DNA of 32,584 nt from an uncultured Pseudorhodobacter sp. (GTDB lineage: Bacteria; Pseudomonadota; Alphaproteobacteria; Rhodobacterales; Rhodobacteraceae): positions 1 through 32,584 of the forward strand of contig CAJXWJ010000042.1 of NCBI GenBank assembly GCA_913062925.1, given 5' to 3'. A program made the translations under genes and the position numbers. Positions within the stretch are counted from its first letter, which is position 1; the number at the start of each line of letters is the position of its first letter. Under the pieces are notes generated by a model, which did no database searches, was not told the DNA's origin, and saw nothing but the letters and a program-made list of their open reading frames with translations. Shown piece by piece: positions 9,811 through 13,193 of the stretch.

Positions 9811-11349
9811 ATGAGATCCATCAGCCTGATCCGCTCTATTCTGACTGTCGGTGGCTGGACCCTGCTGTCACGCGGCGCAGGCTTTGCCCGCGATATGATG
9901 CTGGCCGCCTATCTGGGCGCGGGGCCGGTGGCAGATGCCTTTAACGTGGCGTTTTCTTTGCCCAATATGTTCCGCCGCTTTTTCGCCGAGGGTGCCTTCA
10001 ACATGGCCTTCGTGCCGATGTATGCCAAAAAGCTTGAGGCAGGCGAGGATGCCAACGGCTTTGCCCGCGACGCCTTTAACGGCATGGCGGCGATTCTGAT
10101 GGTGTTTTCGGTGCTTGGCACGCTGGCGATGCCTTGGCTGGTCTATGCCATGGCCTCGGGTTTTGCTGGCGATGCGCGCTATGAGCTTGCGGTGCTTTAT
10201 GGCCAAATCGGGTTTTGCTATATCATGTTCATCAGCCTTGTGGCGCTGCTGTCAGGTGTGCTGAACGCGCATGGCCATTTCACCGAAGCCGGTTTCGTGC
10301 CGGTGCTGATGAACCTGATCTTTATCGCCGCCATGCTGCTGGCCAGCCAAACCGGCTGGGATATGGGCATGACGCTGGCCTGGACCGTGCCGGTGACAGG
10401 CATCGCACAGCTTGGCTTTACCTGGATTGCGGCGCGCAGGCTGGGCTTTAGCTTTACCCCGCGCTGGCCAAAGATCACGCCTGAACTCAAGCGTTTGGCC
10501 TATATCGCCGCCCCTGCGGTCTTGGCGGGGGGGGTGGTGCAGATCAACCTGCTGGTCGGCCGACAAGTGGCCTCTTACACCGAAGGCGCGGTGTCTTGGC
10601 TGGTCTATGCCGACCGGCTTTATCAGCTGCCGCTGGGGGTTGTGGGCATCGCCATCGGCACGGTTTTGCTGCCCGATCTGTCGCGCCGTCTGCGCGCAGG
10701 CGACGAGGCCGGCAGCCGCGAAAGCTTTAACCGCGGCACAGAATTCGCGCTGGCGCTGACCCTGCCTGCCGCCGCCGCGCTGATCACCATCGCGGTGCCG
10801 CTGACCTCTGTGCTTTATCAGCGCGGGGCCTTTGGCGCGGTGGATGCCACCAACACCGCGCTTGCGCTGGCGATCTATGGCGCGGGGCTGCCGGCCTTTG
10901 TGCTGCATAAGGTCTTTCAGCCGCTGTATTATGCACGCGAAGACAGCCGCTCGCCGTTTCACTTTGCGATTGTGTCGATGGTGGTGAATGCCGCGATTGC
11001 GGTCGGGCTGATGCCGCTGATCGGCTTTGCCGCAGCCGCACTTGCCACCACCGTTGCGGCTTGGGCGATGGCGTTTCAGCTGTGGTTTGGCACCCGCAAA
11101 ATGGGCGATGCGGCCCGCTTTGACACCCGCTTTCGCAGCCGCGTGCCACGCGCTGTTGCCGCCTCGATCGCGATGGCGCTGGCGCTGTATCTGGGCCAGT
11201 TGGGGCTGGCCGAGACGCTGGTGAATCCGACATGGCGCTATGCCAGCCTTGCCCTGCTGATCACGCTGGGCAGTCTGGTCTATTTCAGCTTTGGCGCGGC
11301 CATCGGTGCCTTTCGGCTCAGCGATTTTCGCCGCAACCTGCGGCGTTAA
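9811..11349 (+). CDS. murJ: Lipid II flippase MurJ (MviN)
   Basis: Integral inner-membrane MOP-superfamily protein, 512 aa, that moves lipid-linked peptidoglycan precursor (lipid II) across the cytoplasmic membrane. The N-terminal family signature is clear: LLSRGAGFARDMMLAAYLGA, then ADAFNVAFSLPNMFRRFFAEGAFNMAFVPMYAK. The first part carries the arginines (including R in RGAGFARD) needed for lipid II transport in studied MurJ proteins. The rest is a run of about 14 hydrophobic segments, and QLPLGVVGIAIGTVLLPDLSRR is another conserved block. The ATG at 9811 is the family start, about 110 nt after glnD. The 3' end overlaps the convergent rhomboid-like gene by 4 nt. Confidence 0.95.
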   Translation: MRSISLIRSILTVGGWTLLSRGAGFARDMMLAAYLGAGPVADAFNVAFSLPNMFRRFFAEGAFNMAFVPMYAKKLEAGEDANGFARDAFNGMAAILMVFSVLGTLAMPWLVYAMASGFAGDARYELAVLYGQIGFCYIMFISLVALLSGVLNAHGHFTEAGFVPVLMNLIFIAAMLLASQTGWDMGMTLAWTVPVTGIAQLGFTWIAARRLGFSFTPRWPKITPELKRLAYIAAPAVLAGGVVQINLLVGRQVASYTEGAVSWLVYADRLYQLPLGVVGIAIGTVLLPDLSRRLRAGDEAGSRESFNRGTEFALALTLPAAAALITIAVPLTSVLYQRGAFGAVDATNTALALAIYGAGLPAFVLHKVFQPLYYAREDSRSPFHFAIVSMVVNAAIAVGLMPLIGFAAAALATTVAAWAMAFQLWFGTRKMGDAARFDTRFRSRVPRAVAASIAMALALYLGQLGLAETLVNPTWRYASLALLITLGSLVYFSFGAAIGAFRLSDFRRNLRR

Positions 11350-12065
11350 CGCTGCCGCAGTCGCGCCTGCAATCTGGCAAAACCGTTGGGGCTGACGAGG
11401 AAAGACAACCCAAAGCCGCAGATAAAGCCGCTGAGTTCCGCAATCCAATCCCAGCCCAAGGGCATCGGACCCATGCTGGGAAACAGCATCGGCAAGAGCG
11501 TGAACACCAGCCCAAACACCACCTGAATAGCCATCAACCCGCCAATCAGCGAAAACGCCCGCTGCGGCTGCGGCCCCATCCGCGACAGGCCCTTCCACAG
11601 CACAAAGCTAAAGGCCCCAATCAGCCCCGCCACCCCGGGATAGGCGCCAAACAGCGGCTGGCTTTGCACCAAACTGCCGTAAACCAAAGCCCCAACCGCT
11701 GCCGAGGCAACAAAGACCAGCGCCACCGCCCAACCGGCAAAAACCTCGGCCACGAACTTGCCCAGCGCAAGCGTCAACACCACGCCAAACAAAGCGCTCA
11801 TCGTGGTCTGATGCACAAAGGCAAAGCTGACAAAGCGGCGCAACAGCTCAAAGTCAAAGGCCCCCGCCTGCGCCTGTTGCCGCCAATAGTCGGGAAAAAA
11901 CCCAAAACCTTCCAGCGCAGCCACCCGCCAACCAATCGCCGCGCGCCCGCCGATCATTCCCGCCTCAGCGAGGCTCAGCACAAGCTCAACGCCGATCATC
12001 GGCAAGACCAAAAGCCAAACCACCGGCGGCAGCGGATTGATCGGCGCAATATCGTGGTCTTGCAT
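11346..12065 (-). CDS. Rhomboid-fold membrane protein, predicted catalytically inactive
   Basis: Six-to-seven-helix membrane protein of 239 aa with rhomboid family layout, but the protease residues are missing. Aligned by eye to E. coli GlpG, SFAFVHQTTMSALFGVVLTL (residues 80-99) matches the FxHxxxxHxxxN helix: H85 is kept, but the second His is S90 and the oxyanion Asn is G94. The G-x-S-G serine motif reads GAYPGVAGLIG, with Y142 in place of the nucleophile. The helix-6 His motif AHxxG reads AELSG, with E210 in place of His. It is therefore probably a pseudoprotease that binds or chaperones membrane proteins rather than cutting them; that role is inference. A strong AAGGAGG Shine-Dalgarno precedes the ATG. 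It is divergent from trpS and convergent with murJ. Confidence 0.8.
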   Translation of the reverse strand: MQDHDIAPINPLPPVVWLLVLPMIGVELVLSLAEAGMIGGRAAIGWRVAALEGFGFFPDYWRQQAQAGAFDFELLRRFVSFAFVHQTTMSALFGVVLTLALGKFVAEVFAGWAVALVFVASAAVGALVYGSLVQSQPLFGAYPGVAGLIGAFSFVLWKGLSRMGPQPQRAFSLIGGLMAIQVVFGLVFTLLPMLFPSMGPMPLGWDWIAELSGFICGFGLSFLVSPNGFARLQARLRQR

Positions 12066-12088
12066 GGCAGCCTCCTTGAATGCGTCGA

Positions 12089-12117
12089 TTGACGCCCCTT
12101 GCCCCCAGCGTTAAGCC
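12089..12117 (+). promoter_or_regulatory. Putative sigma-70-type promoter of trpS
   Basis: TTGACG (12089-12094), 17-nt spacer, TAAGCC (12112-12117); start codon 33 nt further on. It lies in the 84-nt gap between the divergent rhomboid-like gene and trpS. Confidence 0.45.
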
Positions 12118-12149: not shown

Positions 12150-13193
12150 ATGTCCGAGCCGGTCCAAACGCCTCAGACCTTCCCCACCCGCATCTTCTCG
12201 GGCATTCAGCCTTCGGGCGGCCTGACGCTTGGCAATTACCTTGGCGCGCTAAAGCGCTTTGTGCAAAAGCAGGATGAGGGCATCGAGACGATCTATTGCA
12301 TCGTCGATATGCATGCGATCACCGTCTGGCAAGACCCGGCGAAACTGCGCCAACAAACCCGCGAACTGGCAGCAGGCTTTATCGCCGCGGGCATTGATCC
12401 TGCACGCTCGATCCTGTTCAACCAAAGCCAAGTCTCGGCGCATGTCGAATTGGGCTGGATTTTCAACACGGTGGCCCGCATGGGCTGGATGAGCCGGATG
12501 ACCCAGTTCAAGGATAAGGCGGGCAAAAACTCCGAGAACGTCTCGCTCGGCCTCTTTGCCTATCCCGCGCTGATGGCTGCCGATATTCTGGCCTATAAGG
12601 CCACGCATGTGCCGGTAGGCGAGGATCAAAAGCAGCACCTTGAACTGACCCGCGATATCGCGGCCAAGTTCAACAATGACTATGGCGTGAATTTCTTTCC
12701 GATCACCGAACCGGTGATCGAAGGCGCCGGCACCCGCGTGATGAGCCTGCGCGATGGCACCAAAAAGATGTCGAAATCCGATCCCTCAGATCAGTCCCGC
12801 ATCAATCTGACCGATGATACCGACACCATCGCCAAGAAATTCCGCAAGGCCAAAACCGACGCAGAACCGCTGCCCGAAGATCTTGAAGGCCTAAAAGACC
12901 GCCCAGACGCCCGCAATCTGGTCAATATTTATGCGGCCTTGGCAGATATAACGCCCGAAGCCGTCATCAGCCAATATGCAGGTGCGCAATTTGGCACCTT
13001 CAAACCAGCACTGGCCGATCTTGCCGTGGCAAAACTTTCGCCCATCACCCGCAAAATGAGCGAGCTGATGCAAGATACCACCGAGATCGACCGCATCCTT
13101 GGCGCAGGCGCCGCCCGCGCCAATGCTATAGCCCGCCCGATCGTGGATGAGGTCTATGACATCATTGGCATGATCCGCTCGCGGCAGATCTAG
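12150..13193 (+). CDS. trpS: Tryptophanyl-tRNA synthetase
   Basis: Class I aminoacyl-tRNA synthetase charging tRNA-Trp in the cytosol, 347 aa. The HIGH-type motif is in [20 protein letters not shown] (TLGN variant, as usual for TrpRS). Also visible are [13 protein letters not shown]-type [39 protein letters not shown], and the KMSKS loop KKMSKSDPS, with KMSKS at residues 206-210. I placed the start at 12150 because GGAG is correctly spaced and the family begins just before PTRIFSG; upstream in-frame ATGs at 12099 and 12138 lack good sites. A long inverted repeat follows the stop. Confidence 0.96.

Follow-up and report, generated by a model that had tools for sequence, protein, structure and literature searches.

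The locus and its genes

The window (the whole stretch of DNA analysed here, 32,584 nucleotides) carries a gene for a 239 amino acid membrane protein between murJ and trpS, on the strand opposite to both neighbours. The genes and signals of the locus are as follows.

9811 to 11349, plus strand: murJ, convergent with the rhomboid gene; TTAA is common to both stops
11346 to 12065, minus strand: putative rhomboid pseudoprotease gene, 239 amino acids, six predicted membrane helices and a long first loop
12071 to 12076, minus strand: AGGAGG, a Shine-Dalgarno-like sequence read from the DNA, 5 bases 5' of the ATG
12150 to 13193, plus strand: trpS, divergent from the rhomboid gene; start set at the ATG at 12150

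The coordinates previously assigned to the rhomboid gene are correct; its strand is minus and its ATG lies at 12065-12063. There are 84 bases between its start and that of trpS, and a promoter scan found no sigma-70-type site. A 286 amino acid open frame on the plus strand (11232-12092) runs antisense to the rhomboid gene. A Pfam scan of this frame returned no match and it is probably a by-product of codon make-up. The source genome (3.15 Mb in 111 contigs) has one further rhomboid match, which is canonical (120.8 bits; L001, G000:C2:93502-93936) with GASG and the histidine intact. The named close relatives of the gene's carrier are Pseudorhodobacter, Litoreibacter, Loktanella and Rubellimicrobium, all of them Rhodobacterales in the NCBI taxonomy.

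The window protein is a member of the Pfam Rhomboid family PF01694 (42.9 bits, E 7.2e-11; curated cut-off 22.6). No NCBIfam model scored above its cut-off, and the rhombosortase model TIGR03902 (cut-off 84 bits) gave no match up to an E-value of 1. Helices are predicted at residues 14-34, 88-108, 111-132, 142-162, 167-194 and 206-224. The structure model has six main helices with a mean pLDDT of 64.8 and low confidence in loop 1, and is too weak for the placement of side chains; the model of an orthologue (L034) was worse (mean pLDDT 56.1). The best Foldseek matches of the window-protein model were iRhom1 (9xy4, E 1.1e-4) and GlpG (E 9.3e-4), with a TM-score by target of about 0.66 for GlpG 2xow. 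The modelled protein appears to have the six-helix rhomboid fold, for which we regard the evidence as of moderate strength. In a viral fold search the best matches were rhomboid-named viral proteins (E 9.6e-3) and none fell below 0.001.

Replacement of the catalytic residues

Residues of the window protein were matched to those of GlpG using profile alignments and nearer relatives with an intact site. The positions discussed below are listed with their state among 161 distinct family proteins.

11985 to 11987, minus strand: E27, helix 1; invariant (161/161)
11925 to 11927, minus strand: R47, loop 1; 161/161
11835 to 11837, minus strand: R77, start of helix 2, in the place of GlpG Arg137; 160/161
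11811 to 11813, minus strand: H85, the kept equivalent of His145; kept in 134/161
11796 to 11798, minus strand: S90 for His150; His there in 99/161
11784 to 11786, minus strand: G94 for the oxyanion Asn154; no Asn in the 155 proteins listed fully or in six later ones
11640 to 11642, minus strand: Y142 for the catalytic Ser201; Tyr, Phe or Trp in 154/161
11637 to 11639, minus strand: P143 for Gly202; Pro in 153/161
11436 to 11438, minus strand: E210 for the catalytic His254; Asp or Glu in 156/161
11415 to 11429, minus strand: G213-x-x-x-G217, the helix-6 GxxxG; Gly or Ala at 213 and G217 in 161/161

A family profile was built from 31 orthologues and searched against the PDB. The best match was GlpG (H. 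influenzae 2nr9, E 5.5e-4), and iRhom1 was found at E 0.019. The preliminary description of this DNA relied on an ungapped alignment to GlpG. This holds for H. influenzae GlpG, with which the profile aligns through the motif without gaps, but not for E. coli GlpG, where HMMER introduces a one-residue gap and pairs P143 instead of Y142 with Ser201. Nearer relatives with an intact site, which align to the family without gaps (GASGAVFG and similar sequences against GAYPGVAG), decide the question: Y142 is the equivalent of Ser201.

Active rhomboids have a GxSG serine with a helix-6 histidine, and His150 with Asn154 around helix 2. The window protein fails on the first pair (Y142, E210) and on the second (S90, G94). 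These four replacements were originally proposed from the window alone, and both the profile alignments and the gap-free comparison with intact relatives uphold them. The broader statement that all catalytic residues are replaced is true of the equivalents of the serine, the histidine, His150 and Asn154, but not of His145, which is kept as H85.

The residue counts cover 155 distinct proteins, taken from 164 rows scoring above 120 bits, and six proteins added later; they do not cover all 288 genomes in which the family was recognised. In none of these 161 proteins is position 142 Ser, position 210 His or position 94 Asn. Position 142 is Tyr in 82, Phe in 71, Trp in one and another residue in seven, the rarer residues Gly, Asp, Met and His being found in few lineages. 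Position 210 is Asp in 136, Glu in 20 and another residue in five (Arg in two, Ser, Ala and Gln). Most orthologues are less degenerate than the window protein, which has S90 and also A146 at the position of Tyr205 (Tyr in 152/161). We considered chance or a misreading of the replaced residues, and excluded both on the Pfam score and the residue tables of the family. Loss of proteolysis in this family is, by inference from its residues and in the absence of cleavage data, near certain.

Distribution in the Rhodobacterales

A search with the single window protein matched 23 of 41 genomes: all 15 of its own genus (its own genome counted), 8 of 10 other members of its family, and none of 16 from other families of the class. 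The profile search was more sensitive, and all 292 order-level genomes matched at an E-value of 1e-5 or better. Four of these matches are not pseudoproteases: those in G149, G180 and G265 are intact rhomboids, and that in G270 is a 132 amino acid fragment. In the remaining 288 the best match has an E-value of 1e-37 or better, a range in which all proteins that were read lack the dyad. Of 240 genomes drawn at class level, 49 matched the profile. Three of these are genomes of the window's own family, scoring 286-330 bits, in the range of the pseudoprotease family, and the non-family matches that were read (L072-L098) are canonical, with HxxxxHxxxN, GAS(G/A) and the histidine, except that L082 is misaligned at the serine motif and L097 ends before helix 6.

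The pseudoprotease gene is mostly single copy across the order. In a draw of 120 family genomes, 118 had a rhomboid match and most list at least two. Twelve genomes with at most one rhomboid match were then queried using the family profile, a step that left out the remaining 108. In six genomes (G568, G578, G579, G612, G095 and G598, of which G579 and G612 are single-contig assemblies) the pseudoprotease is the only rhomboid. Among the other low-rhomboid genomes, G604 has an intact gene at the locus and G555 an intact one elsewhere. There was no profile match in G567, G625, G570 and G610, which are among these 12, nor in G018 and G022. The gene is therefore dispensable in some lineages, as the fragment in G270 also indicates. 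This fragment (L117) is a gene remnant adjoining trpS in a 2.6-Mb genome, where the gene is decaying or lost.

The orthologue of Paracoccus ferrooxidans (WGR63770.1) is 40% identical to the window protein and lies between trpS and murJ. It reads GGYPA, has Glu for the catalytic His, and is labelled 'rhomboid family intramembrane serine protease', a label of the kind that had been anticipated. In two Paracoccus sequences, L239 (CP038202.1, pFER4) and L240 (NZ_CP141053.1), the gene is carried by a replicon of 1.46 Mb or 1.73 Mb that is catalogued as a plasmid, and pFER4 has trpS, murJ and a PII uridylyltransferase gene together with the rhomboid gene. A further copy (L035) is in CP059262.1, titled Exiguobacterium profundum (Bacillota), beside a trpS of Rhodobacterales type with 80% identity to that of the window; this title is apparently an error. 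A literature search, which left most subscription journals uncovered, found no paper on a rhomboid pseudoprotease of Rhodobacterales, and an earlier mention in the classic surveys of rhomboid genomics is not excluded.

Selection and new constraint

We estimated dN/dS in 17 close orthologue pairs, which were hand-picked, share sequences and are not a random sample. NG86 values were 0.039-0.297, and YN00 values were 0.043-0.117 in 15 of the 17 pairs. Ranked by entropy among 220 alignment columns, P143 is 29th, E210 57th and Y142 85th, so there is constraint on the replaced sites, but not of the strongest degree found in the alignment. Residues that are near-invariant in the family and absent from its intact relatives include R77, K103 and P143; position 77 in the active relatives is Ser in all four genes at the locus and Met in all 13 paralogues. 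Fixation of these residues only in the family points to a new constraint, beyond mere loss. Selection for a non-proteolytic role was inferred from the window alone in the preliminary description, and as far as sequences can tell it is now well supported, because the replacements are common order-wide and dN/dS is 0.04-0.30.

Intact relatives and the history of the locus

All 155 distinct family proteins have trpS 5' of the gene on the opposite strand. A murJ gene lies 3' of the gene, also on the opposite strand, in 136 of the 155, in 20 of these more than 300 bases away; in the remaining 19 it was not within the DNA stretch examined. Most genomes fetched for comparison from outside the order have murJ together with trpS and no rhomboid within the stretch examined, an exception being L158 (G158), with glnD and without murJ. 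The two genes also adjoin with no rhomboid between them in G022. We rejected a function tied to MurJ or TrpS by location on these grounds: the murJ-trpS adjacency predates the rhomboid, and the location is therefore inherited.

Rhomboids with an intact dyad lie beside trpS in the same orientation in four genomes: L114 (G149), L115 (G180), L116 (G265) and L232 (G604). They span three genus groups (L114 and L116 in g82, L115 in g93, L232 in g375), their motifs are complete (HxxxxHxxxN, GASG and His), and murJ is on the far side of the rhomboid in L114, L116 and L232. A second set of intact rhomboids (L118-L128, L026 and L233) is found elsewhere in some Rhodobacterales genomes. The nearest NCBIfam model of the same-order intact relatives is rhombosortase, at 24.6-38.4 bits, below its 84-bit cut-off.

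Phylogenies were reconstructed from hand-picked subsets of rhomboids (81 and 49 sequences), TrpS (67) and MurJ+TrpS (61 and 31). Rooted on other families, the MurJ+TrpS tree branches in the order G022 (no rhomboid), G604 (intact), G149 with G265 (intact), and then all pseudoproteases. Ultrafast bootstrap and SH-aLRT supports were 100/98, 100/99 and 100/98 with 31 rows, and 61 rows gave the same order. G180 was excluded from these trees, as no murJ lay within the 10 kb fetched, and it was poorly placed in the TrpS tree. In the rhomboid tree the pseudoproteases form one clade (100/100) within a clade of same-order rhomboids (100/97). The best topology places the intact locus genes nearer to the intact paralogues (94/85). 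The alternative, in which they are nearer to the pseudoproteases, is not rejected (AU p 0.477), and in a quick tree test it had p 0.78 and a likelihood above that of the free quick tree.

Rows of the rhomboid trees were cut back to the profile match with a margin of 8 residues, at the cost of helix 1 in many outgroup rows, so longer stretches were re-aligned for the comparison of E27 and R47. E27 is present in 161/161 family proteins, 4/4 intact locus relatives and 13/13 intact paralogues, and in 0/10 rhomboids of other orders. For R47 the corresponding counts are 161/161, 4/4, 12/13 and 2/10.

Intact-dyad orthologues had been named beforehand as something that would refute the pseudoprotease. 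Such genes do exist, in four genomes, but they do not refute it, because three of them diverge in the MurJ+TrpS tree before any of the pseudoproteases sampled; judged from the sequences, the intact locus rhomboids look like the ancestral state. The simplest history is probably that an active gene was inserted, that catalysis was later lost once and that new residues were then fixed, since the tree runs from no rhomboid through intact to pseudoprotease with 100% bootstrap support. A less simple history, which is not excluded, is that an active copy displaced a pseudoprotease in the early lineages.

Possible functions

We propose, with confidence only slightly better than even, that the protein is a rhomboid fold without cutting activity that binds inner-membrane clients laterally; the binding is untested. 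The gap between murJ and trpS would have received an intact rhomboid gene early in the evolution of the Rhodobacterales, and catalysis would then have been lost, probably once. A fixed aromatic-Pro pair (helix 4) and an acidic residue (helix 6) would have taken up the space of the catalytic pocket. The fold, the arginines of loop 1 and helix 2 and the helix-6 GxxxG were kept. The protein may now recognise one or several inner-membrane clients laterally, through their transmembrane segments, and may hold these clients or pass them to a machine such as FtsH, as derlins and dead YqgP do; recognition and partner are both untested. No client, partner, phenotype or expression data stand behind this proposal, and it is weakened by the missing Trp of the derlin WR motif, by the lack of the gene in some lineages, by the poor quality of the structure models and by the probable filling of the active site, which YqgP must keep free for its adaptor role.

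A more specific form of it is an order-wide bacterial counterpart of derlins: the protein would recognise inner-membrane proteins and deliver them to FtsH or comparable machinery, and active ancestors would survive at the locus in early-branching relatives. We hold this only tentatively and think it rather doubtful. If it were true, the birth of a rhomboid pseudoprotease could be traced step by step.

The protein could instead be a dedicated non-catalytic subunit, a constitutive partner in one membrane complex, with E27, R47, R77, K103 and D/E210 as contacts to the partner or a ligand and not as a means of handling clients in general. The new invariant polar residues fit this idea, as do the mostly single copy, order-wide occurrence and the precedent of TimRhom I/II in the trypanosome import complex, as described in the part of that study available to us (PMC5187411). 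With the aromatic-Pro pair probably occupying it, the former active site is unlike the open one that YqgP needs, and a subunit or scaffold role thus stays possible. The locus suggests no partner gene, however: murJ and trpS predate the insertion, and neither is co-directional with the gene. We consider a subunit role unlikely without setting it aside.

Regulation of, or competition with, active rhomboids of the same cell is improbable. There is material for it in the canonical rhomboid of the source genome and in the two or more matches of most of the 120 genomes, but the six genomes that list the pseudoprotease as their only rhomboid, two of them single-contig (G579 and G612), mean that this cannot be its sole role. 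We give still less credence to residual catalysis by a rebuilt site, made of Tyr with Asp or Glu or of the helix-2 histidines. The aromatic and acidic residues are indeed conserved as a set, but Tyr (79/155) and Phe (69/155) alternate and 66 proteins combine Phe-Pro with Asp, so a hydroxyl is not needed, and among the same 155 proteins H90 is lost in 58, the window protein included, and H85 in 26. A decaying relic under little constraint is hardly credible, since against the greater variability of 142 and 210 in a few lineages, the fragment in G270 and the lack of a match in some genomes stand the low dN/dS of all 17 pairs, the invariant residues and a frame that is open among the matches listed in the 292-genome search, and for the order as a whole this reading is refuted by order-wide spread and dN/dS.

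By all the evidence available from sequences, the family is real, conserved and non-catalytic, and its evolutionary trail is unusually clear; the function is proposed and not shown. What the analysis establishes is the fold family, the residue replacements, their spread, purifying selection and the succession of states in the tree, whereas the absence of proteolysis is an inference. A dead rhomboid has been retained order-wide in bacteria among which are easily cultivated genera, and the label 'rhomboid serine protease' can mislead for the whole order.

Comparison with known systems

Most of what is known about rhomboid pseudoproteases comes from eukaryotes, and their origin from proteases is an open question. 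The iRhoms (RHBDF1/2) have, like the Rhodobacterales family, a catalytically dead rhomboid core, and it is iRhom1 that the structure model matched best. They also have an iRhom homology domain and a long cytosolic N-terminus, neither of which fits a protein of 239 residues with 13 before helix 1. In iRhoms a proline precedes the serine site, whereas in the Rhodobacterales family it follows it.

The derlins (Der1, Dfm1 and Derlin-1) share with the family a rhomboid fold without Ser and His, a GxxxG in helix 6 and an Arg at the start of helix 2; in Dfm1, client binding needs the WR motif and dislocation needs GxxxG, according to the accessible part of the source (PMC8641752). The window protein has the GxxxG (G213 and G217). 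It lacks the WR motif before helix 2: Arg77 is present, but residue 76 is R, and is variable among orthologues. The family also differs from derlins in being bacterial, in having no SHP tail or Cdc48 and in having arisen inside a bacterial order. By analogy, FtsH is a candidate for the bacterial equivalent of the derlin-type AAA partner, with no partner data to support it.

Bacillus subtilis YqgP (GluP) is a bacterial rhomboid with a demonstrated non-proteolytic adaptor role. From what could be consulted of the report, a dead mutant presents MgtE to FtsH, a function for which the active site must be unobstructed (PMC7231995). Unlike the Rhodobacterales family, whose wild-type proteins have already lost the dyad, YqgP is itself proteolytically active, and it has a cytosolic domain. 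TimRhom I/II are likewise rhomboids without the dyad, in the trypanosome import machine, and in the available excerpt their authors propose an origin from the alphaproteobacterial endosymbiont (PMC5187411). Our family is a parallel case and not their ancestor, because it arose within Rhodobacterales; no direct comparison was made. A 2025 review, in the sections consulted, discusses what pseudoproteases do in terms of the iRhoms and derlins of eukaryotes (PMC12615303).

The closest comparison is with the intact rhomboids of the same order, both at the locus and elsewhere, which have E27 and R47 in common with the family and differ in their intact GASG, His and Asn and in having no Arg at 77. 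The intact forms in early branches make the change testable with natural before-and-after proteins. Rhomboid pseudoproteases are already known as a kind, and the Rhodobacterales family appears to be a variant of them that had not been described.
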